Part shown: positions 8,110 through 56,051 of the stretch, piece after piece
Layout of the letters: each line of letters begins with the position of its first letter
Position numbering within the stretch: position 1 is the stretch's first letter
Source: Calothrix sp. PCC 6303
GTDB lineage: Bacteria > Cyanobacteriota > Cyanobacteriia > Cyanobacteriales > Nostocaceae
Assembly: GCF_000317435.1 (NCBI RefSeq)
Contig: NC_019751.1
Span: forward strand, 1,736,001 to 1,800,000
DNA: 64,000 bases
Reading direction: 5' to 3'
Program-made: the position numbers and the translations under genes
Notes under the pieces: model-generated
What the model saw: the letters and a program-made list of their open reading frames with translations, nothing else
Told to the model about the DNA's origin: nothing
The model's database searches: none

Positions 8110-8151
8110 AAACTACAGATTAAGTTTTTTCAAAATCCCATCAGCATAGAT

Positions 8152-28511: not shown

Positions 28512-28789
28512 ACTTCGTCGATGATGAAACCCGAAATTTTTTAGCGTTTCAAATGCGTCATTGCGACGCAAGGTAGCAATTTCAAGGTCTTTATAAAAAA
28601 CTAGAATTGTCAAGATAAGCTGTTACGCGCCTAATTTGTATATCTAAAGCGGGCAAGATGCCCGCACCACAAAGCTTATAGTTTTTTAATTTATAGGATT
28701 TAGCTGCTACCCAGCTTAGATGAGGTTTAACTCCGTAATCTCTAACTACGTACTGTATAAATAATAATAGTTGCCAATTCTAGAATGAT
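28512..28789. other. Intergenic region with short dispersed repeat
   Basis: Includes GCGGGCAAGATGCCCGCACC at 28649-28668. The same sequence occurs inside the caspase-FGE gene near 30565. The promoter of the Pepco-like gene should lie at the 3' end. No gene is seen. Confidence 0.45.
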
Positions 28790-36668: not shown

Positions 36669-37449
36669 AGACTGTCCCTGACATTAATTCCTGTGTCTTT
36701 ACTACTAATCGGATCAAAAGTTTTCTTAAAAAATAACGATGGAGAAAGCAAACTATCACCAAAATTTAGGGAAAAAAATCCTAACTCCAGGTGTTTTAAT
36801 TTAATGCACCCGTGTTAAAATCATACCGTTATTTTTTTGGGTTTTTGCTGAGTTCGGGAAACTACCTTAGTTCGCGCAGTTTTCTATTTATATACCGAAG
36901 CGATGTATTTCCTCAATTCCCAATCTCAATTAAAAGCTTTTTCTTGCTGATTCAGCTTGTGGCAATGCCTAATGTTTCATCTGTTCTACTAACCGAGGGG
37001 AAAATCTCTGTATCCACCAACAGAATTAGGGTATTACAATACATACTCATTTGACAATTCTTGATCATCATTCTGATACTGCCTCGATTCTTACGCTCAT
37101 GATTATTTGTCACTTGTGTTGTTACCAATGTCAGAGAAACCTCCTCTGACTTCGTAAATACCTCACTTAAGTAGCAAACAGCGGCAAACATGAGCGAGGA
37201 ATTAAAGTTTAGATGGTCATTTGCACCAAAACCGTTCTCCCGGATTTGGTCGTAACTAGCGCTGAACTTCGCTAGTAAATCATTTGTATCTGGTAGGAAA
37301 ACTGTTGATTGGCTAACAAAAGACAAAGACCCACAATAAATTTATCATGTTCTGCAACAAAAGTTATCTAATTTAGCTTTTGATATTTCGAGAATTCCCC
37401 TCAATATTGGTAATTTGGCTACTAAATTTAAACATAGGTAACAAAATAT
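36669..37449. other. Long intergenic region upstream of gltB
   Basis: A divergent spacer of about 780 nt. It contains a small palindromic repeat at 37130-37150. Two overlapping frames (36812-37054 on the plus strand, 36952-37326 on the minus strand) lack ribosome sites and conserved texture; the minus one starts at TTG and translates through the palindrome. I treat both as non-genic. The promoters of gltB and the glycosidase gene should lie at the two ends. Confidence 0.4.
37130..37150. repeat. Palindromic repeat (GTCAGAG...CTCTGAC), short form
   Basis: GTCAGAG-AAACCTC-CTCTGAC, a perfect 7-bp stem, followed by TTCGTAAA. It shares its outer arms and the TTCGT flank with the longer element at 41670-41711 and lacks the inner hairpin. 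Confidence 0.6.
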
Positions 37450-39468: not shown

Positions 39469-39503
39469 TCGAACATTTAATTTGCCCATGTTTGTTTAAA
39501 GTT

Positions 39504-39572
39504 AACAACAAGCTGCTATTTAATTTCATAAAGACTTGATATAGACACCGTAAATTTAGCAGCTGTTGTTTA
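39504..39572 (+). terminator. Hairpin after glycosidase gene
   Basis: AACAACAAGCTGCTA pairs with TAGCAGCTGTTGTT (14 bp with one bulge) around a 38-nt AT-rich loop, followed by TACACCCCCC. The large loop and weak tail make terminator function only probable. Confidence 0.4.
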
Positions 39573-39723
39573 CACCCCCCATTGTGATTTTGCTATGTTA
39601 GCCAAAGACATCTGAATTGCTGATTTTCACGGTTGCGATATTGCACCATATTTTCTCATCAATAGTATAGAAGCAAACAATAATTCTTTTTCTCTCCAAT
39701 TTCTATTTCCACAAGAGGTAACT

Positions 39724-40140
39724 ATGGCTCAAGAAACAGCACAAATCAACACTTTACCCATGCCATCATCTGCAACTACTCGTGGTGTTGCTGCCACAGA
39801 ACTACGTCCTTGGGGTTCTTTTACAATTTTGGAAGAAGGACGCGGTTACAAAATCAAACGGATTGAAGTCAAACCTGGACACCGTTTAAGTTTACAAATG
39901 CACCACCACCGCAGTGAACATTGGATTGTTGTTTCCGGAACAGCTAAAGTAGTCTGTGGAAACGATGAAATTTTGCTCAGTAATAACGAATCCACATACG
40001 TTCCTCAATGTACATCACATCGTTTAGAGAACCCCGGAGTTATCCCCTTAGTTTTGATTGAAGTCCAAAATGGCGAATATTTGGGGGAGGACGACATAGT
40101 ACGTTATCAAGATGATTATTCCCGTACTGAGAAGAAGTAG
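39724..40140 (+). CDS. Mannose-6-phosphate isomerase type II-like cupin
   Basis: A 138-residue single cupin domain. RPWGSFTILEEGRGYKIKRIEVKPGHRLSLQ is followed by HHHRSEHWIVVSGTAKV (metal-binding His residues and Glu), then YVPQCTSHRLENPG and LIEVQNGEYLGEDDIVRYQDDY, the C-terminal signature of the type II PMI cupin. In bifunctional enzymes this domain isomerises mannose 6-phosphate and fructose 6-phosphate; here it stands alone. It may feed GDP-mannose synthesis. Good ribosome site (AAGAGG) before the ATG. Confidence 0.9.
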   Translation: MAQETAQINTLPMPSSATTRGVAATELRPWGSFTILEEGRGYKIKRIEVKPGHRLSLQMHHHRSEHWIVVSGTAKVVCGNDEILLSNNESTYVPQCTSHRLENPGVIPLVLIEVQNGEYLGEDDIVRYQDDYSRTEKK

Positions 40141-40226
40141 ATATTGGCGATTAGCTGTATATTTCAAGTAAATCACAGTACAAAAAGAAAAACCTAGATA
40201 GGTTCAGGTGTAATCTCTTTGTCACC

Positions 40227-40260
40227 ACCCCATCTTAAAATTTTAAGATGGGGTTTCAAT
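40227..40260 (+). terminator. Terminator after the cupin gene
   Basis: ACCCCATCTTAAAA and TTTTAAGATGGGGT form a perfect 28-nt palindrome followed by TTCAATTT, about 85 nt after the cupin stop and 27 nt before the next start. Confidence 0.75.
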
Positions 40261-40281
40261 TTGCAATATTGCCAGAAATTT

Positions 40282-40731
40282 ATGATTACTCTTAGCCCAG
40301 TTGCCATCAACGAAATTAAACGATTACAATCAAAGCAGCAACAGCCAAACACAGTGGTTAATTTGGCGGTTAGATCTGGTGGGTGTTCCGGTTTATTTTA
40401 CGATTTATCATTTTTAGCAGTTGACCACCAAGGGAATATTATCTTAGAAGATTCACCACTGGCAGAAAACCATCAACATGGTGCTACCTCGCAAGAATCA
40501 TTACGTGATGTTATCGAAGCAAACCGCCCAAAGCACGTTCACACTAAAATTGATATATTTGCCGCCAATGGCATCAAGATAATTTCCGACCCTGAGACCT
40601 GTAAATATATTCACGATCTCACAATAGATTATTCAGAAGATCTAATGGGTGGAGGTTTTCGCTTCAATAATCCCCAAGCTACAGCTACCTGTGGATGTGG
40701 AAACTCTTTCTCCATCAGTGAACTTTCGTGA
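40282..40731 (+). CDS. HesB/IscA-like Fe-S assembly protein with internal insertion
   Basis: From ATG 40282 the product is 149 residues. The family landmarks are MITLSPVAINEIKRLQSK, AVRSGGCSGLFYDL (Cys35), IHDLTIDYSEDLMGGGFRF and NPQATATCGCGNSF (Cys137 and Cys139), so all three conserved cysteines are present. Usual A-type carriers have 105-120 residues. The extra 30-35 residues lie at about 55-90 (PLAENHQHGATSQESLRDVI, then a His/Lys-rich stretch), between two strands of the core. An Fe-S carrier role is likely; the insertion may be a loop or degenerate repeat. The longer frame from 40219 runs through the terminator and is rejected. Confidence 0.85.
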   Translation: MITLSPVAINEIKRLQSKQQQPNTVVNLAVRSGGCSGLFYDLSFLAVDHQGNIILEDSPLAENHQHGATSQESLRDVIEANRPKHVHTKIDIFAANGIKIISDPETCKYIHDLTIDYSEDLMGGGFRFNNPQATATCGCGNSFSISELS

Positions 40732-40898
40732 CTAAACCTCGTCTATCTTGAAAACTGTAGTTTTCTACAAAGACCAAGACTTAATTCACAACCCTATTGG
40801 CTACTACAAAATTATTTATTTGCAAAACACGATCAAAAAAGATATAATCAGGATTTGTTAAAAGTTAGACCATTACACAGCTTCACGCGCTGTAACTC

Positions 40899-41279
40899 AT
40901 GCCAACTATACAGCAGCTCATCAGAAACGAACGCGAAAAAGCGCGTCAGAAAACCAAGTCCCCAGCCCTCAAACAGTGCCCGCAACGTCGGGGCGTTTGT
41001 ACCAGGGTGTACACAACCACACCCAAAAAACCGAACTCTGCACTTCGCAAAGTTGCTCGGGTGCGTCTGACTTCCGGATTTGAAGTTACAGCTTACATTC
41101 CCGGAATTGGTCACAACCTCCAAGAACATTCAGTTGTTATGATCCGTGGCGGTCGGGTGAAAGACTTACCGGGTGTAAGATACCACATCATTCGTGGGAC
41201 TCTGGACACTGCTGGAGTCAAAGACCGTAAGCAAGGTCGTTCCAAGTATGGAACTAAGCGTCCGAAAGCTGCTTCCTAA
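40899..41279 (+). CDS. rpsL: 30S ribosomal protein S12
   Basis: The 126-residue protein starts [19 protein letters not shown] and contains [20 protein letters not shown], the decoding-site loop, and [19 protein letters not shown]. It forms part of the 30S decoding centre. It is the first gene of the str operon (rpsL-rpsG-fusA-tuf-rpsJ). Lys in TPKKPNSA is the wild-type streptomycin-sensitive residue. Confidence 0.98.
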
Positions 41280-41827
41280 CTAATTTGGACATTAGGCAGT
41301 TAACTACCTAACAAATCGATTCATCGCATTTTTTAGGCTAGACTCAACCAGTCAAGAACAATAAGCATGATATTCTGGGCGGCAAAGTCCAAGCTTGACT
41401 TTCTACTCAGATCTCTTGCTTCCTACTTCTAAAATCCAAGTTAGCCTCACCAACAAGCGCAGTCAAATCACTTGCTGGTCTAATTGCTCGGATCGCGTTA
41501 AATTAGTAGAGCTTCGTTTATAGCTTGCCCAAGCGCGAGTGTAGAAAATTTTGAGATGCTGTGGGTGTCAGCCACACTCTGATTGGGCATTAAAGTATAT
41601 AATTAATGTCGCCTTGCATATCTGGTTGAGATCGCAAGTATTTTCTAAGTCAGCATCGCTGCAAATGTAGTCAGAGAGACCTCGCCGTGCAACGACGGGC
41701 TTTCCTCTGACTTCGTGAAAAGCAAAACTCTGGGAAAAAATGTAACGTAACGGTGTTCAACCCAGTTACAACTTTCCAAAACGCTCAAACGTCATTTTAT
41801 TGCCAAAGCCGAATTTAAGGGTTAAGT
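41280..41827. other. Unusually long rpsL-rpsG spacer
   Basis: This 548-nt spacer lies within the str operon. It carries a palindromic repeat at 41670-41711, a possible promoter-like TATAAT near 41597-41602 (in AAGTATATAATTAATG), and several short imperfect inverted repeats such as GGGTGTC-AGCC-ACAC near 41563. No reading frame is credible. It may hold an internal promoter for rpsG-fusA-tuf or a leader RNA. Confidence 0.45.
41670..41711. repeat. Palindromic repeat (GTCAGAG...CTCTGAC), long form
   Basis: Outer arms GTCAGAG and CTCTGAC pair perfectly. An inner hairpin CTCGCCGT-GCA-ACGACGGG pairs with one mismatch. TTCGTGAAA follows. The same architecture occurs, within a coding sequence, at 53693-53734, and a short form occurs at 37130-37150. 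Confidence 0.65.
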
Positions 41828-42298
41828 ATGTCTCGTCGTGGTGTTATTCAAAGGCGTCAAGTCCCGCCTGACTCAGTTTACAACAGTCGTCTGGTAAGCA
41901 TGACCATACGTCGCATTATGCGTCATGGCAAAAAGTCGCTGGCTGCACGCATTGTTTATGATGCGATGAAAACAATCGAAGAACGCACTGGTAGCGATCC
42001 CCTCGAAACCTTTGAAAGAGCAGTGCGGAACGCAACCCCACTAGTTGAAGTCAAAGCCAGACGTGTGGGTGGTGCAACCTATCAAGTACCAATGGAAGTG
42101 CGTACAGAACGTGGCACAACATTGGCGCTACGCTGGTTAGTGCAGTATTCTCGTTCTCGTCCTGGTCGGACAATGGCAGCTAGACTTGCAAACGAGTTAA
42201 TGGATGCTGCAAACGAAACCGGAAGTGCCATCAAAAAGCGTGAGGAGACTCACCGGATGGCAGAAGCGAACAAGGCTTTTGCACATTATCGATACTAA
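41828..42298 (+). CDS. rpsG: 30S ribosomal protein S7
   Basis: A 156-residue protein starting [20 protein letters not shown], with [39 protein letters not shown] and the C-terminal [18 protein letters not shown]. It binds 16S rRNA and nucleates assembly of the 30S head. Second gene of the str operon, separated from rpsL by an unusually long spacer and from fusA by 167 nt. Confidence 0.98.
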
Positions 42299-42465
42299 TA
42301 CAAGCGGAATATCTGATCGCCTCATGTTTGAAAATCAATATATCGCCACCGCAAAGTCGTGGTATGTAGGTGTTTAAAAAGGTTGGCGGTTTTCCGTAAA
42401 AGTATAGAATCTTAACAAAGTGTAATATAAAAGATATCATGAGGCGAAAGCTATAGGAGGCAGCT

Positions 42466-44544
42466 GTGGCACGTACAACTCCGTTAGAGAGGGTACGCAA
42501 CATTGGTATTGCGGCGCATATAGATGCGGGCAAAACAACAACAACAGAAAGAATTTTATTTTATTCTGGGGTTGTTCACAAAATTGGTGAGGTTCATGAA
42601 GGAACCGCCGTTACCGACTGGATGGAACAAGAGCGGGAACGGGGAATCACCATTACAGCGGCTGCGATTAGCACTAGCTGGAAAGATCATCAAATAAACA
42701 TTATTGATACTCCTGGTCACGTAGACTTCACAATTGAAGTCGAACGTTCCATGCGTGTACTAGATGGTGTGATCACCGTCTTGTGTTCTGTAGGTGGTGT
42801 ACAACCACAAACAGAAACAGTGTGGCGGCAAGCAGACCGTTATAAAGTTCCTCGTTTCATCTTTGTGAACAAGATGGATAGAACTGGGGCTAGCTTTTAT
42901 AAGGTGTATGAGCAAGTACGCGATCGCTTACGCGCAAATGCCGTTCCCATTCAACTACCCATCGGTGCCGAAACTGAATTTTTAGGATTAGTAGATTTAG
43001 TTAAAATGCGTGCGTATATATATACGAACGACAAAGGCACTGATATCCAAGAGCAAGATATCCCCGCAGATATGGAGGAGTTGTCTCAGGAGTATCGCCG
43101 CAAGCTTATTGAAGCTGTAGCCGAAACTGACGACAACTTGATGAACAAGTATTTTGAGGGTGAAGAGTTAACCGAAGAAGAGATTCGCACAGCTCTACGT
43201 AAAGGAACAATTTCCGGTGGAATTGTCCCCATGATTTGTGGTTCTGCCTTCAAAAACAAAGGTGTCCAATTACTACTAGATGCAGTAGTGGATTATCTGC
43301 CCTCACCTGCTGAAGTACCTCCAATTCAAGGTACCCTCCTCAACGGCGATCCAGTTGAACGCCACGCTGATGACACTGAGCCACTATCAGCACTCGCCTT
43401 CAAAATCATGGCAGACCCCTATGGTCGTCTGACATTCGTCCGGGTTTATTCCGGCATCCTGAAAAAAGGTAGCTATATTCTTAATGCCACCAAAGGGAAA
43501 AAAGAAAGAATTTCCCGTTTGGTTGTCTTGAAAGCAGACGATCGCCAAGACGTAGATGAACTACGGGCAGGTGATTTAGGTGCAGCGTTAGGTTTAAAAG
43601 ATACTCTAACAGGTGACACGATTACTGATGAAGGCTCACCAGTAATTCTGGAATCTCTATTTATTCCAGAGCCAGTTATTTCGGTTGCGGTGGAACCAAA
43701 AACCAAAAATGACATGGATAAGCTGTCTAAAGCTTTACAATCTCTTTCCGAAGAAGATCCAACTTTCCGCGTCAGAGTCGATCAAGAAACAAACCAAACC
43801 GTAATTGCCGGGATGGGAGAATTACACTTAGAAATTCTAGTAGATCGGATGCTACGGGAATTTAAAGTTGAAGCTAACGTTGGCGCACCCCAAGTAGCCT
43901 ATCGGGAAACCATTCGTAAAGCCGTCAACAAAGTTGAAGGTAAGTTCATCCGTCAAAGTGGTGGTAAGGGACAATACGGTCACGTTGTCATCAACCTAGA
44001 ACCGGGTGAAGCCGGAACAGGTTTTGAATTCGTCTCCAAAATTGTCGGTGGTTCCGTACCTAAAGAGTACGTTGGTCCCGCTGAAGCTGGAATGAAAGAA
44101 AGCTGTGAATCAGGAGTTCTGGCAGGATATCCTTTAATTGATGTCAAAGCGACATTAATTGATGGTTCTTACCACGATGTCGATTCATCGGAAATGGCAT
44201 TCAAAATTGCTGGTTCTATGGCAATGAAAGAAGCCGTACTAAAAGCTTCACCTGTGTTATTAGAGCCGATGATGAAAGTCGAGGTAGAAGTTCCCGAAGA
44301 CTACCTTGGTGATGTCATGGGTGATTTGAACTCCCGTCGTGGACAAATCGAAGGGATGGGATCTGAACAAGGTCTTGCTAAAGTCACGGCAAAAGTTCCA
44401 TTGGCAGAAATGTTTGGCTATGCCACTGACATTCGGTCAAAAACCCAAGGTCGGGGTATCTTCTCAATGGAATTTAGTAGCTATGAAGAAGTACCTCGCA
44501 ACGTTGCCGAGGCAATCATAGCGAAAAGCAAAGGGAACGCATAA
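42466..44544 (+). CDS. fusA: Translation elongation factor G
   Basis: The 692-residue protein begins at GTG 42466 with the ribosome site GGAGG upstream. GTPase motifs: G1 [12 protein letters not shown], switch [15 protein letters not shown]3 [11 protein letters not shown]4 FVNKMDR, G5 CGSAFKNKG. Domain IV has [16 protein letters not shown] and domain V ends with [15 protein letters not shown]. It translocates tRNA and mRNA on the ribosome. The tuf gene follows 22 nt later. Confidence 0.98.
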
Positions 44545-44566
44545 CTAAAAAAGGAAACAACTATTC

Positions 44567-45796
44567 ATGGCACGCTCGAAGTTTGAACGGAATAAACCCC
44601 ACGTTAACATTGGTACCATCGGTCACGTTGACCATGGTAAAACCACTTTAACAGCAGCAATCACTATGACCTTAGCGGCATCAGGAAAATCTGTTGCTAA
44701 GGCATACGACCAAATCGATGCTGCTCCCGAAGAAAAAGCACGCGGTATTACAATTAACACCGCTCACGTAGAATACGAAACTGACAACCGTCACTACGCT
44801 CACGTAGATTGTCCTGGACACGCTGACTATGTGAAGAACATGATCACTGGTGCAGCACAAATGGACGGCGGCATCTTGGTTTGTTCCGCAGCAGACGGTC
44901 CTATGCCCCAAACCCGCGAACATATTCTGTTGGCAAAGCAGGTGGGTGTACCTAGCTTGGTGGTTTTCTTGAACAAAGAAGACATGGTGGATGATGCGGA
45001 ACTACTAGAATTAGTTGAGTTAGAAGTACGCGAACTTCTTTCCAGCTACGATTTCCCCGGCGATGATATCCCCATCATCACAGGCTCTGGTTTGAAAGCA
45101 TTGGAAAAAATGGCTTCTGCGCCTAAAACCCAACGGGGTGAAGACACTTGGGTAGACAAAATCTACGCCTTGATGGACGCTGTAGACTCCTACATTCCTA
45201 CCCCTGAGCGGGAAGTTGACAAACCTTTCTTGATGGCGGTAGAAGACGTATTCTCGATTACAGGTCGGGGTACAGTTGCTACCGGACGGATTGAACGTGG
45301 GAAAGTTAAAGTTGGTGACAACGTAGAGTTGGTTGGTTTGCGTAACACCCGCGCTACCACCGTAACTGGAATCGAGATGTTTAAGAAGAGTCTCGAAGAA
45401 GGTATGGCTGGTGACAACGCTGGTTTGTTGCTACGTGGTATCCAAAAAACTGACATTGAGCGCGGAATGGTATTGGCAAAGCCAGGTTCCATCACCCCTC
45501 ACACCGAATTTGAAGGTGAAGTATATGTTTTGACCGAAAAAGAAGGTGGTCGTAAGACTCCTTTCTTTGCTGGTTATCGTCCCCAGTTCTACGTGCGGAC
45601 AACTGATGTAACTGGAACAATTGATGCTTTTACCTCTGATGATGGTAGTGCAGCAGAAATGGTAATGCCAGGCGATCGCATTAAAATGACAGTGAAGCTA
45701 ATCAACCCAGTAGCGATTGAGCAAGGTATGCGCTTTGCGATTCGTGAAGGTGGTCGTACCATCGGTGCTGGTGTCGTTTCTAAAATTATCAAGTAG
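44567..45796 (+). CDS. tuf: Translation elongation factor Tu
   Basis: A 409-residue EF-Tu. [20 protein letters not shown] is G1, [13 protein letters not shown] switch [18 protein letters not shown]3 and [11 protein letters not shown]4. Domains 2 and 3 follow ([52 protein letters not shown]). The length matches cyanobacterial EF-Tu, which has a short insertion in the GTPase domain relative to E. coli. A terminator follows. Confidence 0.98.
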
Positions 45797-45825
45797 AAAC
45801 TGTACATTTTTTAATTGAAGAAAGT

Positions 45826-45868
45826 AGCAGAGATGATATAATTCATCGTCTCTGCTCTTTTATGTCTC
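45826..45868 (+). terminator. Terminator after tuf
   Basis: AGCAGAGATGAT pairs with ATCGTCTCTGCT (12 bp including one G-T), followed by CTTTTATG. It lies between tuf and rpsJ, so rpsJ may depend on readthrough or its own promoter. Confidence 0.7.
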
Positions 45869-45955
45869 CCCAAAAGAATTTAGATTCTAGATTTTGGGTT
45901 AACTCTAAAATCTAATATCTAAAATCCAAAATCACTAGAACCAGGAAAATTTGAA

Positions 45956-46273
45956 ATGGCAACGCTACAGCAGCAAAAAATTAGAATCCGTTTACAAGCT
46001 TTTGACCGACGTTTGCTAGATACATCTTGTGAAAAGATTGTGGAAACTGCCAACAGAACAAACGCTACAGCTATAGGTCCGATTCCTTTACCTACTAAAC
46101 GCCGCATTTATTGTGTGTTGCGATCGCCTCACGTCGATAAAGACTCCCGCGAACATTTTGAAACCCGTACTCACCGACGCATCATTGATATTTATCAACC
46201 ATCTTCTAAAACGATTGATGCTTTGATGAAATTGGATTTACCATCCGGTGTAGATATTGAAGTGAAGTTGTAA
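45956..46273 (+). CDS. rpsJ: 30S ribosomal protein S10
   Basis: The 105-residue protein has [63 protein letters not shown] and [21 protein letters not shown], diagnostic of S10. It is part of the 30S head and also serves in transcription antitermination with NusB. In cyanobacteria rpsJ follows tuf, as here. Confidence 0.98.
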
Positions 46274-46342
46274 GAAATGATAACTTGTTGAGTAGAAACG
46301 TAAGACTACCAACTTTACATAATTATTGTAATAATTAATACT

Positions 46343-46378
46343 AGCCCTGAGATATATTTCTTCAGGGCTTTCTATTTG
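46343..46378 (+). terminator. Terminator after rpsJ
   Basis: AGCCCTGA pairs with TCAGGGCT around an 11-nt AT-rich loop, followed by TTCTATTTG. It lies 70 nt after the rpsJ stop. Confidence 0.7.
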
Positions 46379-46458
46379 CTGTAAAACAAAATGATAGAAT
46401 ATTACTAAGTCAACATAAAGTCATAACTTTTAAAGATTAAACTTATACCAAGGCAAAA

Positions 46459-47109
46459 ATGGCATCCTCTCCTCAAATTGCTGTTCGTGAACTACCTCTA
46501 TTTCCATTACCGGATTTAGTTTTGTTTCCAACTCGCCCACAAGCACTACATGTCTTTGAATTTCGCTACCGAATCATGATGAACACGATTTTGGAAAGCG
46601 ATCGCAGGTTTGGTATTTTAATGATTGATCCAAACACAGGAACAGTGGCAAACGTTGGTTGTTGTGCAGAAATCATTCATTATCAACGCTTGCCTGATGA
46701 CAGGATGAAAATGTTAACCTTGGGGCAGCAGCGTTTTCGAGTGCTAGAATATGTCCGGGAAAAGCCTTACAGAGTTGGTTTGGTTGAATGGATCGAAGAT
46801 GAAACACCAACCGATGATTTACGTCCCTTAGCTTCAGAAGTTGAACAACTTCTACGGGATGTCGTCCGCTTATCTGGAAAGCTAACTGAGCAAAATATAG
46901 AATTACCTGAAGATCTACCAGATTTACCGACTGAACTATCTTATTGGGTAGCTAGTAATTTACATGGTGTTGCACCAGAACAACAAGCATTATTAGAATT
47001 ACAGGATACTGCTGCTCGTTTAGAGCGGGAAGCAGAAATTTTGACCTCAACTCGTAATCATTTAGCTGCTCGCACAGTATTGAAAGATACTTTTAATCAA
47101 AAGCTGTAA
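46459..47109 (+). CDS. LON peptidase substrate-binding (LON-N) domain protein
   Basis: A 216-residue stand-alone LON-N (PUA-like) domain. Landmarks are VRELPLFPLPDLVLFPTRPQ, LHVFEFRYRIMMNTILE, FGILMIDPNTGTVANVGC and LTLGQQRFRVLEY. It has no protease or AAA+ part. The C-terminal half is helical. Its role is unknown; a cyanobacterial str operon is commonly followed by this gene. Confidence 0.9.
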   Translation: MASSPQIAVRELPLFPLPDLVLFPTRPQALHVFEFRYRIMMNTILESDRRFGILMIDPNTGTVANVGCCAEIIHYQRLPDDRMKMLTLGQQRFRVLEYVREKPYRVGLVEWIEDETPTDDLRPLASEVEQLLRDVVRLSGKLTEQNIELPEDLPDLPTELSYWVASNLHGVAPEQQALLELQDTAARLEREAEILTSTRNHLAARTVLKDTFNQKL

Positions 47110-47201
47110 TTCAGGAATATATTCAAATTGCCCCTACTCCCCCTTCGGTGTGTTGAGATGTTGTGTACTTGCAAAATTTTTTAGCCGAAGGATCGGGTAG
47201 T

Positions 47202-48074
47202 TCACAGGTTGTTACTTGAGAGAACACCATAACTGCCAAAAATCTTTAAAATTTCCGTATTGCTTGCTAATTCTGTGAAAGCGGATTCCATTGGCTCATT
47301 AATGCTTCCTGATTCGATATCAATAAAGAAGAGATATTCACCAAGCGATCGCTTAGTGGGACGAGACTCGATTCTACTAAGGTTTAGATTTAAATTAGCG
47401 AATATTTTGAGATTTTTGACCAATGCACCAGGTACATTTGCTGGGACACTAAATGCTAAGGAAGTATGAGTTGGATTGATTTTAGACGAGTCAATAATTG
47501 GTGGAGTAGCATTCTGACTCACAACCCAAAAACGCGTACAATTATCTGGATAATCATTGATTCCATCTGCCAGAATAGGCAAATTATACAGTTGTGCAGC
47601 ACGGTGTGAAGAAATCGCCGCAGCAGTTGTATCTTGTTCTAAAGTTGGCAACGCCGAAGTTGTTGAATTTGTGGCAATTAGCTGTACATTTGGTAAAAAT
47701 TTCTCCAACCAAACTTGGCATTGTGCTAAACCTTGGGGATGGGAATAAACTGTTTGGATTTGCTCTAAATTTTCAGCACAAGATATCAAAACATGAACAA
47801 TTGGCATATTTAATGCTAATTGAATTTGCAATGTGTCTAGTTGCCACATTGCGTCCATTGTCATTGTCACGCTGCCTTCAATTGAGTTTTCCGCTGGAAC
47901 AACCGCAAGTTTTGTTTTACCTTCAGCAACAGCTTTGAGGGATTGGGCAATGCTGGGATGAGGACACAAAATAGCTTTTATCCCGGTGGTTCGGGCAAGC
48001 CAATTAGCATAGTAAAGTGCAGCTTGTTCGCTATGGTTTCCAGGCGGTCCTAAATGTGCAATTGAAAGATTCAT
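47202..48074 (-). CDS. pheA: Prephenate dehydratase
   Basis: From ATG 48074 the protein is 290 residues. The dehydratase domain shows SIAHLGPPGNHSEQAALYYA, KLAVVPAENSIEGSVTMTMDA, VYSHPQGLAQCQVWL, AAISSHRAAQLYNL and NCTRFWVVS. An ACT domain follows (HTSLAFSVPANVPGALVKNL; LSRIESRPTKRSLGEYLFFID), giving Phe feedback control. It converts prephenate to phenylpyruvate. It is the monofunctional type, without a chorismate mutase domain. Confidence 0.95.
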   Translation of the reverse strand: MNLSIAHLGPPGNHSEQAALYYANWLARTTGIKAILCPHPSIAQSLKAVAEGKTKLAVVPAENSIEGSVTMTMDAMWQLDTLQIQLALNMPIVHVLISCAENLEQIQTVYSHPQGLAQCQVWLEKFLPNVQLIATNSTTSALPTLEQDTTAAAISSHRAAQLYNLPILADGINDYPDNCTRFWVVSQNATPPIIDSSKINPTHTSLAFSVPANVPGALVKNLKIFANLNLNLSRIESRPTKRSLGEYLFFIDIESGSINEPMESAFTELASNTEILKIFGSYGVLSSNNL

Positions 48075-48350
48075 CAAGTTATATCCTTAAAATCTAGTTT
48101 TTAGGTAATTAGGAGCGGAAATTTAGTAACATGCAATATTACTTCTGATCTCGGTAACTGAAATATATAACATTCTCAAGTCCAGAATCAAAAGAGAAAG
48201 TTGACTAGTAAGTATAAATTTTTATGACTAAAACTGTACGGATCTGGATGATTATATTGTTTAAAATTAAGATATCTTGTTTTTATAGGGAAAGATATTC
48301 TATTTATTAAAAGATATTAGAATTATTAACATAAACGTTTACATTAATTT

Positions 48351-48932
48351 ATGCTGACTAAGTTTACAGCTGCCCAATCCTTAGAAATAGATGTTGCTGA
48401 ACAACCAATTCCAATTCAGCATTACCTACGTCAACCTCAGCGTCTGGTCAACGCACTAGTTGATCCTAGTCGGATAGTTCAACTATCAGAAGAAATATTT
48501 CGGTTAAAGATGCGTCCCCTGTCGTTTATGTCGGTAAGTATTCAGCCAACAGTTGATATGAGGGTTTGGACGGGGGCAAATGGTATAGTTTGTCTCGAAT
48601 CGGTAGATTGTGAAATTATTGGAGTTGAGTATATTAATCAACGGTTTTCACTTCAGTTGAAAGGGTATTTATATCCAGAACAGTCAAAAGCTGGAACTCG
48701 TTTAAAAGGGCAAGCTGATTTAAAAGTACAGGTAGATTTACCACCACCATTTTCTTTTATGCCGAAAATGATTGTGGAGACGGCTGGAAACGGTTTACTT
48801 AAAAGCGTGTTAATGACAATTCAGCAAAGATTGCTACGGTACCTTTTAAAAGATTATCAACAATGGGCTATTTCCCAAACTAAAAATGTGGATGCTAGTG
48901 GGGTTAATCCTGATGGAAAGCTGCTAAATTAA
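48351..48932 (+). CDS. DUF1997 family protein
   Basis: A 193-residue protein typical of the cyanobacterial/plant DUF1997 family: PIQHYLRQPQRLVNALVDPS, FRLKMRPLSFMSVSIQPTVD and LPPPFSFMPKMIVETAGNGL. Function unknown. It is single and convergent with rnhB. Confidence 0.85.
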   Translation: MLTKFTAAQSLEIDVAEQPIPIQHYLRQPQRLVNALVDPSRIVQLSEEIFRLKMRPLSFMSVSIQPTVDMRVWTGANGIVCLESVDCEIIGVEYINQRFSLQLKGYLYPEQSKAGTRLKGQADLKVQVDLPPPFSFMPKMIVETAGNGLLKSVLMTIQQRLLRYLLKDYQQWAISQTKNVDASGVNPDGKLLN

Positions 48933-48944
48933 AGAAGAATTTCT

Positions 48945-49604
48945 TCAGCACTGTTTGTCTTGACATGGACTAAAAGATTTACGGTGCAGTATACAGGTAC
49001 CAAATTGTTGAATAGCTTCTAGATGGCGTTGGCTACCATAGCCTTTATTGCGGTGTAAATCATACATTGGATACTTAGATGCTAACCGAATTACCAAGTC
49101 ATCGCGCCAAACTTTAGCGACTATACTGGCAGACGCGATCGCTAACGACAACGAATCACCTTTAATTATAGTTTGTTGGGGAATTCCTAAATCAGGAATG
49201 TATTGATTGCCATCCACCAAGCAAAGTGTCGGTTGTACTTTCAGTTTGAGTACAGAGCGCTTCATCGCCAACAATGAAGCCTGTAAAATATTAATACTGT
49301 CAATTTCGGCAGTTGAAGCAAAACCGATTTTCCAGTCTGTAGCAAGCAGACAAATTTGCTGTGCTAATTGAGTGCGACGTAAACTTGATAACTTTTTACT
49401 GTCTTTGACTCCCATTGCAGCTAATTCGGGTAATGCAGTGGTTGGGAGAATCACCGCTGCTGCTACAACTGGACCAAATAATGCACCTCGTCCCACTTCA
49501 TCCACACCAGCTATAATTCCTTGAGTATTAGATAATGTAGATAGTTCAAGCCAATTAGATGTTTCGGGAAACAAACTTGGAATTGCTGGCTTTTTTTTTA
49601 CCAT
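48945..49604 (-). CDS. rnhB: Ribonuclease HII
   Basis: The 219-residue protein has the catalytic DEVGRG motif in GIIAGVDEVGRGALFGPVVA, DSKKLSSLRRTQL, and the C-terminal MYDLHRNKGYGSQRHLEAI. It removes RNA from RNA-DNA hybrids. It lies downstream of lysS on the same strand with a palindromic repeat between them. Confidence 0.95.
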   Translation of the reverse strand: MVKKKPAIPSLFPETSNWLELSTLSNTQGIIAGVDEVGRGALFGPVVAAAVILPTTALPELAAMGVKDSKKLSSLRRTQLAQQICLLATDWKIGFASTAEIDSINILQASLLAMKRSVLKLKVQPTLCLVDGNQYIPDLGIPQQTIIKGDSLSLAIASASIVAKVWRDDLVIRLASKYPMYDLHRNKGYGSQRHLEAIQQFGTCILHRKSFSPCQDKQC

Positions 49605-49662
49605 TTTAGTTGTTATATTTCTAAACGCGATCGCGTTGCTGTAGTCTTTCCCCTTGGAACTC

Positions 49663-49686
49663 AGAGACGCGATAGATCGCGTCTCT
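49663..49686. repeat. Palindrome AGAGACGCGAT-AG-ATCGCGTCTCT
   Basis: A perfect 11-bp-arm palindrome in the lysS-rnhB spacer. Its outer bases (AGAGACG...CGTCTCT) match the centre of the MITE copies at 8007 and 28405. A second, HIP1-containing palindrome (AACGCGA-TCGCGTT) lies at 49624-49637. Confidence 0.6.
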
Positions 49687-49697
49687 ACGGGGTGAAA

Positions 49698-51233
49698 TTA
49701 CTCTGGGGATTCAGATGAAATTTGATCAGAATCCGGTTTTTCCGGCTTTAGTAATGGGAATGCGATCGCGTCTTTAATACTGGCACAATCTGTAAGTAGC
49801 ATCACTAATCTATCGATACCGATGCCTAAACCCCCTGTAGGAGGCATTCCGTACTCCAAAGCTGTGATAAAGTCCTCATCAACTCCCTGCGCTTCTAAGT
49901 CCCCCTCAGCTTTCCTCGCAGCTTGTGCTTCTAGTCTTTGTCTCTGATCGATCGGATCTGTCAACTCAGAAAAACTATTCCCTGTTTCCCTACCCACAAT
50001 AAATAACTCAAACCTTTCCACCAAACCAGGTTTAGAACGGTGGGGTTTTGCTAAGGGTGAATTTTCGACTGGGTAATCAATCACAAATGTTGGTTGAATT
50101 AAAGTTGTTTCCACCTTCTCTTCAAAAGCCAAAACCAATAATTTACCAATTGAAGTGTGTTCATCAACATCAGGAATTCCCGCATTTTTACATGCCGTTT
50201 TTGCCTCTTCCACAGTGGAAAAAGTTGTGAAATCTAAGCCAGTGGCATCTTTTACCAAATCATGCATTGTCACCCGTCGCCAAGGTGGTGTCAAATCTAT
50301 ATCTTGTCCTTGGTAGTTAATTTTTAAAGTTCCCAAAACATCCTGGGCAACGGTGGTGATAATTCCCTCCGTGAGGTTCATCATGTCATCGTAATCGGCA
50401 TAAGCCTGATAAATCTCAATGGAAGTAAATTCAGGATTATGACGGGTAGAAATTCCCTCATTACGGAAAATTCTCCCCATCTCAAATACCTTTTCAAAAC
50501 CACCCACAATTAACCGTTTCAGGTGTAACTCCGTGGCAATCCGCAAATAAAGCTGAATATCTAGGGTATTGTGGTAAGTCACGAAGGGACGCGCATCAGC
50601 ACCACCTGCTTCTGCTTGCAATACTGGGGTTTCAATTTCTAGAAAATCACGTTCTTCCAAGTATCTGCGAATACCCGCAGTAATTTTGGCACGACGACGA
50701 AAAGTCTGTTGTACCTCAGGATTAACAATTAAATCTATGTATCTTTGACGGTAACGTTTAGCAACATCTGTTAAACCATGCCACTTATCTGGTAAAGGTA
50801 ACAACGACTTTGTTAAAATCGCAAATTCCTTCACATAGACCGATAATTCACCCTTTTGCGTTCGTTTAATGGTTCCCTTTACACCCAGGATATCGCCGAT
50901 ATCCATGAGTTTATCTAGAGATTTAAAGGCATTGGGAATTATTTCACCCATGCCATCATCAACAGCTTGCTTATCAAGATAAAGTTGGATTTTACCAGTT
51001 TCATCTTGGAGAGTGGCAAACGCCAGTTTACCCATAAACCGACGTGTCATGATGCGTCCTGCGATCGCAACATCGATATTCACCTCTTCACTACTGGGCA
51101 AATCGACAAATTGCGCTTGCAACTGTTCGGTGTGATGGGTTATTTCCCAGCGATAAGCATAAGGGTTCATCCCTAACTGCTTTAATTGTTCTGCTTTTTC
51201 TAGCCGTGTAGCACGGATATCTTCTTCCGACAT
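49698..51233 (-). CDS. lysS: Lysyl-tRNA synthetase (class II)
   Basis: From ATG 51233 the protein is 511 residues. The N-terminal anticodon-binding OB domain ([23 protein letters not shown]) is followed by class II motifs: motif 2 [21 protein letters not shown] and motif 3 [36 protein letters not shown] with [19 protein letters not shown] is typical of LysS. It charges tRNA-Lys. Confidence 0.97.
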
Positions 51234-52210
51234 GGTTAACAAACTTGTTCAGGACAAATTTAACGGTGAATAATGAATAGTCAACAGTTATCAGATCATA
51301 GGATCAAAGTTCCCCAGTTCTTACCACCACATGAATGCAGTTTGCGTTGCCCGCAGTGGTTTAGAAGTGTCACTGAGCTTCGTCCTCAAGGCTCCCTCTG
51401 ATAACTGTTCACTGATAACTGATAACTTTTTTAATGGATCAGACCAGCCAAATTGTACATTCATAATTGCCAGACTAGCGTCCGTATCCCAGGGAAATAC
51501 ACTGATAGAATAAAGAAGCAGCAGTTATTAAATCCAAATTTTCTCCTGTAATCCATTAGTTAAGGGTGAATACACGTAAATCAAGTAGTTAGTATTTTCA
51601 CATAATTAGGGTATGAGTAATTTTACTACTCAGCCTTACCGCACAATCAATCGAAGAATACCAAGAATAAATAACACCTAATTTTTGTAAGCGATGTAAC
51701 CTTCTTAATGCAATCAAAACGTTATCATTGAGTAAAGTTATTCGTTACAACTTCCTAAGGATTGTAAACATTTAAAATAATAAGTTGAGGTAGAGCAATA
51801 ATATACTGACAGCAGATTCACAAAAGTTTATTAAATTACACGTATTCTGCTTCCTAACTGGTGCTGTTTGAATCCATAACACACAAGCACTTGAGAGCAT
51901 TTTAAGATCAGAGATTTTGATTTAAATTTTGTTCAGTAAAAGTACCAGTGACGCTAGTGCTGTCATCAGGCTACAACCAAAGAGAAATTACAGAGATACG
52001 TACTCACATCAAAGTTAGTTATACCCAATTATTATCTAGATGGGTTCTAACAATCTTAATCAAAATTTAACAATTATTCAGTCATGGGTTAAAACAAATA
52101 TCCCTAGGTAAGTAGCTTTTTATTCCTCTACTTACCCCGGATGTTGTTGGAATTTTGAGTCAAAAAATACATCAAAAAACATCATTAATATAGTATTCAG
52201 GAAGCAACCT
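51234..52210. other. Long intergenic region upstream of WD40 gene
   Basis: Nearly 1 kb with no credible gene. Near 51400 there are imperfect repeats of TGATAACTG (TGATAACTGTTCACTGATAA). A short dispersed-repeat-like stretch containing GCGTTGCCCGCAG lies around 51340. The rest is AT-rich. The frame at 51331-51513 is a repeat shadow. Confidence 0.4.
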
Positions 52211-53284
52211 ATGTATACACCATCCCGCCAATCCGACAACAGTTCTCGCGCTTTATCTACAAACAATATTGCCAATAGCCTTGGATACCAGTCTCAAGAG
52301 AAAATTCAAGAAAACTTATTTTCCGCAGTCGTTGGTTCTGGTGTTACCAACTTATTTCCCCGTTACATTGACAAATTAGAATTAAACAATACCAATACCT
52401 CCGCGAATTTATCAGAATGGCGATGTGTACGCACATTAACATGTGATTCCTATGCTGTTGCATTTAGTCCAGATGGGAAAAAACTAGCAAGCGGCAGCAC
52501 TCATATTAAACTTTGGGATTTAGAAACTAAAGAACTAATTTGTACTTTCAAACGATATTCCGGGATTCTCAAAACATTGGCATTTAGTCCCGATGGTAAA
52601 ACCCTAATTAGCGCTGGTTTAAGCCAAAGTATTGAATTATGGGATGTGGAAACTCAAGAAGAAATCCGCAAATTTGCCCCCTACGCATACGCAGTAAATT
52701 CCATCGCCTTTAGCCCCAATGGTAAATTATTTGTCAGTTGCGATCGCGGAAAAACAATTCAAATTTGGAATCCCAATTCACAGCAACCAACAACTACATT
52801 TCTGCAACACCAAGATTGGGTGAATTCTGTTAGTATTAGCCCTGATAGTCATGTTCTTGCCAGTGCCAGCCATGATAGAACCATTAAATTGTGGGATTTG
52901 TCAACCAGAACCGAGATAGTCACCTTAATTGGGCATTCCTCACCTGTATACTCCTTAGCTTTTAGCCCAGATGGACAAATTCTTGCTAGTGGTAGTGGTG
53001 ATGGAACCATAAAACTGTGGCACCTAGAAACAGGAAAGCTTCTGAGAACCCTCACAGGACATGCAGATGAAGTCTACTCCGTGGCTTTTAGTGCTGATGG
53101 ACAAACCCTCGCTAGCGGCAGTGGTGATGCCACAATTAAACTGTGGCACCTAGAAACAGGAGAGGAAATAGAAACATTAGTAGGTCATAAATACGCTGTT
53201 AGGTATGTAACTTTCAACCCCAATCAGCAAATTTTGACAAGTACCAGTGCTGATGGTGTCACCAGGATTTGGCAACACAGCTAG
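52211..53284 (+). CDS. WD40 repeat protein, seven-bladed
   Basis: After about 75 low-complexity N-terminal residues the protein has seven WD40 repeats: VRTLTCDSYAVAFSPDGKKL, then LKTLAFSPDGKTL, VNSIAFSPNGKLF, VNSVSISPDSHVL, VYSLAFSPDGQIL, VYSVAFSADGQTL and VRYVTFNPNQQIL, each ending IKLWDL or a variant. Seven blades make a complete propeller. It has no catalytic domain or membrane segment and probably acts as an interaction scaffold. A terminator follows. Confidence 0.9.
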   Translation: MYTPSRQSDNSSRALSTNNIANSLGYQSQEKIQENLFSAVVGSGVTNLFPRYIDKLELNNTNTSANLSEWRCVRTLTCDSYAVAFSPDGKKLASGSTHIKLWDLETKELICTFKRYSGILKTLAFSPDGKTLISAGLSQSIELWDVETQEEIRKFAPYAYAVNSIAFSPNGKLFVSCDRGKTIQIWNPNSQQPTTTFLQHQDWVNSVSISPDSHVLASASHDRTIKLWDLSTRTEIVTLIGHSSPVYSLAFSPDGQILASGSGDGTIKLWHLETGKLLRTLTGHADEVYSVAFSADGQTLASGSGDATIKLWHLETGEEIETLVGHKYAVRYVTFNPNQQILTSTSADGVTRIWQHS

Positions 53285-53373
53285 AAGAAATATAAGCACA
53301 AAACCAGTTTTGGCTTATCAATGCTTCTCAAAACTGTCGAGTTTGTCATAATTTATGCACACAACCAAGATAT

Positions 53374-53415
53374 ACCCGGTTTCTAGATTGAGAAACCGGG
53401 TTTGTTTTTGCTTTT
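53374..53415 (+). terminator. Terminator after WD40 gene (AAACCCGGTTT family)
   Basis: ACCCGGTTTCT pairs perfectly with AGAAACCGGGT (11 bp, 6-base loop), followed by TTGTTTTTGC. It ends the WD40 gene and lies near the end of the convergent gene at 53423. Confidence 0.78.
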
Positions 53416-53422
53416 TTCTTTT

Positions 53423-53860
53423 CTATTTTTTCAACGCTTCCAACTTGAGAGTATACAGTTGTTGAATTGTTTGTAGGATTTCACGCTGTTTAGATGATAT
53501 TTCCAATTTAGCGATCGCTTGATCAAAACTATTCCCACCGTGAACGAGTTTCCTCAAATCTCCTTGTTGATCAGAATTCAAAACTTTATGAATCTCTAAA
53601 TTACGACGTTGCCGTACAGCTTGTTGGCGCTGAAGTTGTTGAGGAGTTATATACTGTTGTCTAAGATTATTAGCTTGCAGCACATTCGCCAAGCTAGAGG
53701 AAGCTTCACCGTGCAACGGCGAAATCTCTCTAACAGCAAAAGCAGCCTGAGTGCTAACTTGCGCGATCAGCTTAACCTCAGGAAGCAAAAACGCCAATCC
53801 AACACAAATAACTAAAAGTAGCAGTCGCTTGGGAAAAATAATGGACATATACCGATACAT
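53423..53860 (-). CDS. Secreted helical protein with embedded palindromic repeat
   Basis: From ATG 53860 (or 53848) the product is about 145 residues. A signal peptide (RLLLLVICVGLAFLLPEVKLIA) precedes a mature helical part rich in Gln, Arg and Leu (ITPQQLQRQQAVRQRRNLEIHKVLN, then DLRKLVHGGNSFDQAIAKL). Residues REISPLHGEASSSL are encoded by a 42-nt palindromic repeat (53693-53734). The overall pattern recalls small periplasmic Spy/CpxP-like helical proteins, but I do not claim membership. Function unknown. Confidence 0.65.
   Translation of the reverse strand: MYRYMSIIFPKRLLLLVICVGLAFLLPEVKLIAQVSTQAAFAVREISPLHGEASSSLANVLQANNLRQQYITPQQLQRQQAVRQRRNLEIHKVLNSDQQGDLRKLVHGGNSFDQAIAKLEISSKQREILQTIQQLYTLKLEALKK
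53693..53734. repeat. Palindromic repeat inside a coding sequence
   Basis: On the minus strand the sequence has outer arms GTTAGAG and CTCTAGC (one G-T) and an inner hairpin TTCGCCGT-TGC-ACGGTGAA. It resembles the intergenic element at 41670-41711, and the frame runs straight through it. Confidence 0.7.
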
Positions 53861-54205
53861 TTGAACAGAAAACGCCCCATAAAAACAAAGAACAGGACAC
53901 AACCATAATTCTCAGTAGTAGTAGATATAACATAAAGGTGTCTTTCTGATTCCCCCACTTCTACTAAGTGGTTCTCATAACCCCTGCGGGATACAAACTA
54001 CAGTGGGAACGGCACTTTTCGAGAGTCGGATGACCCCCAAAAGCCACCTTGTCGAATCGACATCTGCCGCATTCTGATTTTTCTTTTTTAGTATGAAACC
54101 ACCCTGCTAAGTAAGTAGAGAGTAGTGAGTAGGCAGCAGTTGAAAAATCCCTTACATCCTTGACAGTGAAAAAATTTTTTTCATCGTGACAGCCTCTTCT
54201 TAAAG
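53861..54205. other. Intergenic region with conserved stem-loop repeat
   Basis: Apart from the stem-loop at 54011-54053, the region shows an imperfect inverted repeat (CCACTTCTACTAAGTGG at 53957-53973) and a T-rich tract after 54079. No gene; the minus-strand frame at 53964-54233 only translates these repeats. Confidence 0.4.
54011..54053 (-). repeat. Conserved stem-loop repeat, copy 2 (loop GAGTCGGATGA)
   Basis: GGCACTTTTCGAGAGTCGG continues TGACCCCCAAAAGCCACC and then TTGTC. It shares GAGTCGGATGA, the CCAAAA stem strand and the TTGTC flank with the element at 6016-6058, while the stem bases vary. It lies about 150 nt upstream of the reverse-strand gene at 53423-53860. Confidence 0.6.
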
Positions 54206-54466
54206 TCATTTTTCGAGACGCACCGCATACCACTGTAAGTATTTTCCCCGACCCACATCCAACTCACAACTTGTATCCAGTAAATGTTTAGCCTGTAACT
54301 CCACTGAATTGAACCTTTGTAAATCTTCCGGCAGGTCTTCACTCTGAAATAGTTGCAAAACTGATTGTAACTTTTCTAGCAATTCTGGTTCCGTTAAAAA
54401 CTGTTCGGGTTGGTCTGTTTCCAAGACGACATAATTGTCCTCTTGATACATTAACGAATTTGCCAC
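54206..54466 (-). CDS. Chlororespiratory reduction 7 (CRR7) family protein
   Basis: The 86-residue protein has DNYVVLETDQPEQFLTEPEL, LPEDLQRFNSVELQAKHLLD and CELDVGRGKYLQWYAVRLEK. The ending CEL-x(4-6)-LQWYxVRLE and the LPxDLxxF motif match the CRR7/DUF3571 family. Plant CRR7 is needed for assembly of the chloroplast NDH-1 complex; a similar role in cyanobacterial NDH-1 is inference. GTG start. Confidence 0.78.
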   Translation of the reverse strand: MANSLMYQEDNYVVLETDQPEQFLTEPELLEKLQSVLQLFQSEDLPEDLQRFNSVELQAKHLLDTSCELDVGRGKYLQWYAVRLEK

Positions 54467-54936
54467 AATAAATTACTACCTCTATAAACAACTAATTTAG
54501 GTGATTCCCAGCGTAACGAAGCACAAGCTTCACGTTTCTGGAATGCCATGACTATACGCAAGACTATAAAACGCCTTAATTATACCGACTCTCTACTAGT
54601 GCTAGGCTAGTCTATAAAAATACAGCCCATACAAGTTAGTATTATGCTCAGATCACTGAATAAATATTTTCAGCCTTTAAATACCAGCAATTAAGACAAT
54701 GATGGGAATCTTAGAAGATATTCCCATAGTTTTCCAGATTATGAAAATTGTGGTTTATTTATTGGGAACTATAAATAATAATATTCCTTAAACCATAACA
54801 CTGGCATTCACAAACCATTTAATTATGCAAATAATTTTCCCCGCAGATTAATTTAATTTTTACCTAGTAGTACTTATGTATCTACCAAACCAACAATTTT
54901 TTATTCCAGAATTTAATTTTCATTAGAACGCAACCC
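54467..54936. other. Intergenic region between crr7 and the REC-GGDEF gene
   Basis: A short dispersed repeat (GCGTAACGAAGCACAAGC, TTCACGTTTCTGGAATGCC) lies at about 54510-54550. It resembles the one near 27120. The rest is AT-rich and should hold the promoters of both divergent genes. No gene is seen. Confidence 0.4.
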
Positions 54937-55986
54937 ATGTCAGGCATAAGTCCTACCAATATCTCGAATCAACCCCCTCTCATTCTCGTGGCTGATGACG
55001 ATAAGACCATACGACTATTGTTGCGGGAATTTATGGAGAAAGAAGGCTACCGAGTAGTCGAAGTCGGCAACGGCAAACAGTGTTTACAGGCTTTTCAAGA
55101 AATGAAACCCGATCTGATTCTCATGGATGCCATTATGCCGGAGATGGATGGTTTCACATGTTGTAAACATCTTATTCAAATTGCCAGAAATAATTTAGTA
55201 CTTGCATTGGCAAATTTTGAGAATGGCGATTCATTTGGCAGTAACATTATTTCCAGCTTGTGGGAAAAAACTCCAATTTTGATGATCACAGGTTTAAATG
55301 ACCCAGAATCAGTTGATCGTGCTTTTGAATCGGGAGCCAGTGATTTTGTCACCAAACCAATTCATTGGGCAGTATTACGTCAACGTGTACGTAGATTGTT
55401 ACAACAAGCACAACTTTACAAACAACTGGAAGCTGCCAACCAAGCATTACAACACTTGGCTAATATGGACGGGTTAACAGGAGTAGCCAATCGCCGTCAT
55501 TTTGATCAACATTTGAACTCACAGTGGTTGACTTTGGCTCAGGATAAAGCTCCTTTGTCATTGATTTTGTGTGATATTGATTTTTTCAAACGTTACAATG
55601 ACAAATATGGTCATCCAGCTGGTGATTCTTGCTTGCAGAAAGTGTCAGATGTTCTGGGTGGTGCTGCTCAAAAACATCAAGATTTAGTTGCCCGTTACGG
55701 TGGTGAAGAATTTGCTGTAATTATGCCTCGTACCCCAGCTACTGGTGCTGTTCATATTGCGGCAACTATTCAGGCTGGCATCAGAGAATTGCAAATTACC
55801 CATATGGAGTCGGCAGTGAGTCAGTATGTAACATTGAGTTTAGGAGTCGCCACAATTATTCCTAACTTTGATCTATCACCACAGGATTTGGTGATTATTG
55901 CCGATAAGGCACTATATGAAGCCAAAGAACATGGACGTAATCGGATTATTCTCAAGCAAATGGAATATCCATCACAGTTAGTCTAG
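54937..55986 (+). CDS. Response regulator with GGDEF domain (PleD-like)
   Basis: A 349-residue protein. The REC domain has ILVADDDKTIRLLLREF (acidic pocket), phosphoacceptor Asp in LILMDAIMPEMDG, the Thr in ILMITGLND and Lys in DFVTKPIHW. A coiled linker (YKQLEAANQALQHLANMDGLTG) joins a diguanylate cyclase domain with the active GGEEF motif (VARYGGEEFAVIMPRT). The usual RxxD inhibitory site reads KHQD, so product inhibition may be weak. The REC domain has about 20 extra residues (ARNNLVLALANFENGDSFGS) between the helix after the phosphoacceptor and ILMITG. Confidence 0.92.
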   Translation: MSGISPTNISNQPPLILVADDDKTIRLLLREFMEKEGYRVVEVGNGKQCLQAFQEMKPDLILMDAIMPEMDGFTCCKHLIQIARNNLVLALANFENGDSFGSNIISSLWEKTPILMITGLNDPESVDRAFESGASDFVTKPIHWAVLRQRVRRLLQQAQLYKQLEAANQALQHLANMDGLTGVANRRHFDQHLNSQWLTLAQDKAPLSLILCDIDFFKRYNDKYGHPAGDSCLQKVSDVLGGAAQKHQDLVARYGGEEFAVIMPRTPATGAVHIAATIQAGIRELQITHMESAVSQYVTLSLGVATIIPNFDLSPQDLVIIADKALYEAKEHGRNRIILKQMEYPSQLV

Positions 55987-56051
55987 TACATGAAGGCAAA
56001 GGTGAGTAGGCAGAAAGCGCAAAAGTGGTTTATAAGAACCCATTACAGATA

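Follow-up and report, generated by a model that had tools for sequence, protein, structure and literature searches.

To our knowledge, the movement of protein-coding palindromes has no settled mechanism. The palindromic miniature elements derived from IS200/IS605 have a hairpin, a preferred site beside one end and no clear duplication, and a preferred site beside one end without a clear duplication is typical of single-strand (Y1) transposases. Nostoc punctiforme is said to carry very small palindromic, mobile-looking repeats of 21-27 nt, the SDRs, and RNA intermediates have reportedly been proposed for small repeats of the cyanobacteria. Intragenic REPs occur in many bacteria, and GTAG families, including GTAG-12/15/16, in cyanobacteria, according to passages of PMC3733652, which also indicate that RAYT-type Y1 genes can be missing. 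Palindromic repeats known as RPEs, and cases in Wolbachia, are reported in passages of PMC10969869 and PMC2996958, with a length of about 150 bp given for RPEs in a review passage (PMC10969869/PMC2996958).

The window, by which we mean the whole 64,000-nucleotide stretch that was analysed (C3:1736001-1800000 of the 6.96-Mb genome G000), contains a segment that is very likely a cyanobacterial mobile element of very small size and non-autonomous kind, i.e., a 45-nt nested palindrome that would insert before GTNAA-like sites and leave the frame open, with selection keeping copies in tolerant loops and linkers. The features concerned are as follows.

53423..53848, minus strand: host gene of a small exported protein, with a signal peptide (recognised by eye), a variable linker that holds the insert, and a conserved, helical-looking domain
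53690..53734, minus strand: putative insertion unit, read in frame as VREISPLHGEASSSL and followed by GCGAA, which is diverged from the usual GTNAA
41670..41714, plus strand: intergenic 45-nt copy, R1 (the covariance model described below) E 9e-17, copy inside the model; followed by GTGAA
37130..37153, plus strand: short form of 24 nt, consisting of the outer arms and the TTC tail, R1 E 5.4e-7, copy not in the model; followed by GTAAA

That a 42-nt double palindrome lies at 53693-53734 had been claimed in a sequence-only reading, and this was confirmed: it is present on the minus strand, folds as RNA to -18.9 kcal/mol compared to -9.0 +/- 2.4 kcal/mol for 200 shuffles (z -4.2), and is read in codon phase 0 of an open frame, the ORF at 53423..53902 of the minus strand. 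Better limits for the unit are 53690-53734, i.e., the double palindrome and a 3-nt tail, 45 nt in all. The same reading had put the palindrome in frame and after the signal peptide of a protein at 53423-53860, and of this the frame and position stood while the start had to be moved, since the alignment of relatives favours the ATG at 53848.

Two relatives of the palindrome that had been noticed from the letters, a long form at 41670 and one with outer arms only at 37130, proved to be real. A degenerate long-form pattern produced two window matches versus 0.00 expected, and a short-form pattern one versus 0.01 expected; both patterns were composed after the copies had been seen, and the stronger test was therefore R1, a covariance model of nine aligned copies from which the window copy, the 37130 copy and C3:1280540 had been left out. 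Over the window, R1 gave five rows, which represent three places (41670, the window copy and 37130) plus the opposite strand of 41670 and 37130, and nowhere else. The window copy, absent from the model, was matched at 53684-53734 with E 3.7e-9 for the window and 4.0e-7 for the 6.96-Mb genome. Judging from the flanking ORFs (named by eye, as are all ORFs here unless backed by a match), both relatives are in all likelihood intergenic, as had been supposed: the first lies between rpsL-like and rpsG-like ORFs, and the second between a glutamate-synthase-like ORF and a 672-aa ORF, where it is overlapped only by a 124-aa ORF that we took as spurious. By its position in the rpsL-like/rpsG-like spacer, the copy at 41670-41714 could affect an essential operon.

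Beyond the window, R1 returned 69 rows from its genome at E up to 10, and the 38 rows at E < 0.01 amount to 37 places, two of the rows being the two strands of one place. Nine of these places are the training copies of the model, and the copy at C3:1280540 was recovered at E 3.8e-8 from outside it. By this homology the window segment is one copy of a dispersed family, and that family extends through the order, with 40 of 388 genomes (own genome included) carrying it at E 1e-4, a lower bound because 15 candidates were scored per genome. The carriers are divided among family f20 (25), whose named members are Pleurocapsales, f18 (5), f8 (5), f32 (3), f16 (1) and f1 (1), and those with names include Hyella, Xenococcus, Pleurocapsa, Myxosarcina and Hydrococcus (33 stretches). 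Relatives yielded a match at E 0.01 in five of 80 genomes, own included, and the 47 other genomes of its own family yielded none at that threshold. This genome may thus have acquired the element from elsewhere. A search of viral contigs with one strict pattern gave no match.

The element has the layout GTCAGAG-AGA-inner hairpin-CTTC-CTCTGAC-TTC. We tabulated 136 copies, comprising 50 own-genome rows that reach an E of about 0.7 (some of them perhaps due to chance) and 86 copies from nine other genomes; the unit is 45 nt long in 92 of the 136, a multiple of three in 109, 24 nt in four short copies, and at most 93 nt in any. In the 123 copies with AC before the tail, the 5' flank is unconserved except for a weak G at -1, and the 3' side consists of the tail TTC followed by GTNAA, in which the N is free, a degree of conservation that is overstated because R1 contains nine tail positions and these copies were filtered for AC before the tail. 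Copies stand beside this short preferred site without a target duplication past 2-5 bases assignable to either side, and the site itself is not invariant, as is evident from the GCGAA that follows the window copy and from the recJ and GNAT genes considered below. On the opposite strand, the element comes after a TTNAC-like sequence and ends with CTGAC or CTAAC.

The arms of the palindrome covary. Among 89 distinct 45-nt units, drawn from 104 copies, there were 31 cells in the outer arms in which both partners had changed and still paired, compared with a maximum of 16 in 300 shuffles, and 85 both-changed cells in the inner hairpin compared with a maximum of 52, the relatedness of the copies persisting through the shuffles; when the partner was slid as a control, both-changed cells numbered at most 10 in the outer arms and 49 in the inner hairpin. 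An unpaired C.A occupies position 16-26 in 53 of the 89 units. Variants of the unit were also seen. Five matches of 54 nt in G066 (L118, L119, L121, L122 and L126) represent a sister form, with the tail CCGTTG for TTC and then GTYAA, and a unit of 48 nt if GTYAAN is excluded. Seven others (L110, L111, L112, L115, L116, L163 and L173) have extra sequence within the inner hairpin and matches of 60-99 nt, suggesting nested insertions, and one of them, L110, is read in frame within what looks by eye like a J-domain protein. From L206:1501 onward, two full 45-nt units abut exactly and a third starts at the contig end, so that the next GTCAG replaces the target, an arrangement that is possibly an assembly effect.

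Empty sites at the DNA level were obtained for two genes of G066, a Myxosarcina MAG, and it is these that define the unit. Its GNAT gene has exactly 45 nt extra between agaaattg and gttaaa, missing in all six of the congeneric orthologues aligned (eight of 12 genomes were matched, carrier included, and one partial match was omitted), and GTNAA is found only in the nearest of the six empty sites, in the orthologue with 80% identity. Its recJ gene also has exactly 45 nt extra, missing in each of the ten aligned orthologues from the genus (11 of 12 genomes, the carrier among them, gave a match); the empty sites read GTNAA in six, GTNAG in three and GTCCG in one, and the carrier has GTGCA after the unit. 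In the genome of the window, the gene at C3:1280540 has 15 residues between KYIVKVSVK and NNTTYATGM that are missing in 23 of 23 aligned relatives (29 of 48 genomes matched, own included, with five matches, of which four stop close to the insert, left unaligned), and the GAF domain of the kinase at C3:4390996 was aligned to PDB 6uv8 (E 3.6e-65) with gaps of 2 and 13 residues, 15 in total. A hydrolase of G276 has an insert that is common to G292 (96% identical) and absent from G178 (87%), seven of 11 matches having been aligned; its loop varies and it was therefore not counted as an exact empty site, and one relative in that search has an internal stop. The insert in a kinase of G276 begins at GGKIWVES, and two solved-kinase alignments end there or three residues later, while in G066 a cNMP-binding domain match spans an insert of the 48-nt type. 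The palindrome is thus in frame in protein genes that have empty sites in relatives, and its translation is predicted.

In the nine other genomes, 13 of 86 copies fall within ORFs of 100 aa or more and are preceded there by 20 or more residues, the 3' side being unconstrained. G066, with 25 element matches at 23 places, has five places well inside an ORF of more than 100 aa and one each near a start and near an end, and G062 has one of its three copies inside an ORF. The 50 own-genome rows include three copies well inside genes (the window copy, 1280540 and 4390996) and three in C-terminal tails (5760252, 1247665 and 6549598), which we mention and do not use as proof. Left out of the in-gene count were copies upstream of an evident start (C3:4042301, 2414466, 1010491 and 5763241) and those in ORFs shorter than 100 aa. 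A further candidate, C3:982633, in antisense 0 of a 271-aa ORF, was rejected for its E of 0.029.

The copies well inside longer ORFs are read in sense 0, 1 and 2 and in antisense 1; antisense 0 is weaker, being limited to copies close to a start, within a short ORF or with a weak E, and antisense 2 was unseen in any ORF counted. Of 104 units, 98 have no stop in sense 1, 87 none in antisense 0, 84 none in antisense 1, 44 none in sense 0, 10 none in sense 2 and eight none in antisense 2. The three copies in sense 2 (L126, L129 and L212) have altered outer arms and the usual stop is absent from them, the arm changes being fully compensated in two (GTCACAG/CTGTGAC and GTCGAAG/CTTCGAC) and partly in one. 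A genome-wide scan for a preferred frame and peptide, as had been proposed, did find copies in coding frames, but no one frame or peptide stood out as preferred from genome to genome, since several frames are used and are stop-free; within the genome of the window, sense 0 is used in five of six gene-linked copies. The two empty sites at the DNA level, the copy at C3:1280540 missing from all 23 aligned relatives, and the in-gene copies in several frames support the earlier idea of a mobile repeat tolerated as protein sequence. The palindrome observation holds, and its interpretation largely does.

The host gene of the window copy was matched in 39 of the 80 genomes searched, own included, no close orthologue was among these matches, and no Pfam family scored above its cut-off. 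A QRRNxEI-type core is kept in 29 aligned relatives (30 loci, own included), in which the distance from the start to the core is 56-79 residues (median 70), compared to 81 in the window protein and 66 without its insert. The sequence-only reading would have been contradicted by orthologues that conserve the segment as protein where the DNA palindrome is absent, and no such case was found, a peptide like REISPLHGEASSSL occurring in none of the 29 aligned orthologues. The linker is naturally variable and the closest relative, at 38% identity, is too distant, and for these reasons the empty site in the window is supported rather than proven, and the insertion event that we infer there rests on the homology of its DNA to the family. 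The position of the insert, just after the signal peptide, is in a linker where change is tolerated; the copy would be translated as 15 extra residues, and the secreted protein very probably bears a 15-residue patch from a mobile hairpin. A different repeated hairpin, around GAAACCGGGTTT, occurs at 31766-31830 and 53381-53403, the second copy lying just past the 3' end of the host gene.

It could be argued that the window segment is ordinary linker protein sequence in which the DNA palindrome is incidental, and the long and variable linker of the host family would fit. However, like DNA is found between genes in the window and the genome, R1 finds the segment (E 4e-7) when built without it, and the unit is also in unrelated genes with empty sites while its peptide is missing from all 29 aligned orthologues of the host gene, which together leave this idea with scarcely any probability. 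Nearly as improbable is that in-gene copies sit in spurious or decayed frames: some of the ORFs are 5' leaders or C-terminal tails, and there is the internal stop in one hydrolase relative, but GNAT, RecJ and GAF similarity is high on both sides of the insert, and the cNMP-binding domain match runs across another.

A different proposition, to which we would give somewhat more weight and which we nonetheless regard as unlikely, is that the palindrome is kept as a working RNA or DNA (an mRNA hairpin, an attenuator or a protein-binding site), the in-gene copies being functional hairpins and not passengers. The covarying arms agree with this, as does the finding that most examined copies are outside genes, one of them between the rpsL-like and rpsG-like ORFs; yet a hairpin required for movement would be expected to covary just as much. 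The genes that hold copies are unrelated and, where they were compared, the copy is mostly confined to a single genome, and Rfam gave no match up to E 1 for 36000-56000 of the window. Moreover, no gene family stands beside most copies: the clustering of 543 ORFs near copies produced, among its 15 largest clusters, sensor kinases at 12 loci, an ABC transporter at five and others at four or fewer, in a tally that ignores orientation.

In the reading we favour, that of a small mobile element, the 45-nt palindrome would insert ahead of GTNAA-like sites. As its commonest length is 45 nt, or 15 codons, and it has stop-free frames (mostly sense 1 and antisense 0 and 1), it can enter a gene without closing the frame, and selection would then keep the copies in tolerant loops and linkers, where an extra loop would presumably be neutral. 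A transposase acting in trans would move it, perhaps one of the single-strand HUH/Y1 kind, the hints being the hairpin, the lack of a clear target duplication, the site beside one end, and an end, CTRAC, that resembles the TTNAC of the other strand. Pfam Y1_Tnp gave 33 matches in five of six carrier genomes, most of which are drafts, and no Y1 match in G066. No parent element was found near Y1 genes, R1 having given no element match over 30 Y1 loci with flanks of about 1.5 kb in five genomes, and the mobilising enzyme was not found in this search. That the element moves by way of an RNA intermediate, with a DDE transposase or through a replication error, and not by HUH/Y1, has an appreciable chance of being correct, if one short of even. 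It draws on those same 30 loci, on the RNA intermediates reportedly proposed for small cyanobacterial repeats, and on a two-locus ORF cluster near copies in different genomes (L079 and L158) that is transposase-like by eye with a DDE-type look, but a preferred site at one end without a clear duplication fits single-strand transposases. More speculative, and in our estimation rather doubtful as a whole, is a single-strand transposition system of cyanobacteria that disperses a hairpin cassette of 15 codons (45 nt, or 48 nt in the sister form) beside GTNAA-like sites. In this view the cassette, whose length and stop-poor content suit genes, would repeatedly add one loop to folded enzymes and would be an invader of proteins whose unit and site are defined.

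Set beside the SDRs of Nostoc punctiforme by description only, the element is likewise a very small, palindromic and mobile-looking cyanobacterial repeat, and it differs in length, 45 nt versus a reported 21-27 nt. With the IS200/IS605 miniature elements it shares the hairpin, the preferred site at one end and the lack of a clear duplication, but no autonomous parent with matching ends was found near the Y1 genes of the six genomes, mostly drafts. Its resemblance to RPEs lies in palindromic repeats that are in frame in unrelated genes and are tolerated as an extra protein segment; the bacteria are unrelated, however, the cyanobacterial element has exact DNA empty sites and a preferred site, and its 45 nt (in 92 of 136 copies) contrasts with the length of about 150 bp given in the review passage. 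The parallel with Rickettsia genes that the palindrome had first called to mind therefore stood for the shared behaviour and not for the length. As passages of PMC3733652 describe the GTAG/CGTC REPs, these are also small, mostly intergenic palindromes, some of them within ORFs that include DNA-repair genes (here recJ), whereas the 45-nt element has no terminal GTAG/CGTC tag, its ends being GTCAGAG and CTCTGACTTC with GTCAG part of the stem, and no Y1 gene among the 30 loci has the element beside it.

By the descriptions of RPEs and intragenic REPs, the 45-nt element appears to be a separate cyanobacterial family, set apart from both. A prior description was not found in the titles, abstract openings or passages of the open literature, and papers matching three short strings of the repeat were unrelated by title, among the matches listed. 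A 45-nt hairpin has spread in some cyanobacterial genomes, at times entering genes without breaking them. With its unit, boundaries, preferred site and exact empty sites now defined in cyanobacteria that live freely and are in part available from culture collections, its mobility and what 15 additional residues cost a protein are directly testable. There is also a warning here: an unusual loop in a cyanobacterial protein may in fact be mobile DNA.

The window holds other repeats as well. Two 94-nt copies at 8018-8111 and 28419-28512 are 88% alike, with a palindrome GTAGAGACGTAGCA-TGCTACGTCTCTA that looks GTAG-type or SDR-type, and a 43-nt repeat at 6016-6058 and 54011-54053, 79% alike, has GAGTCGGATGA in its middle.
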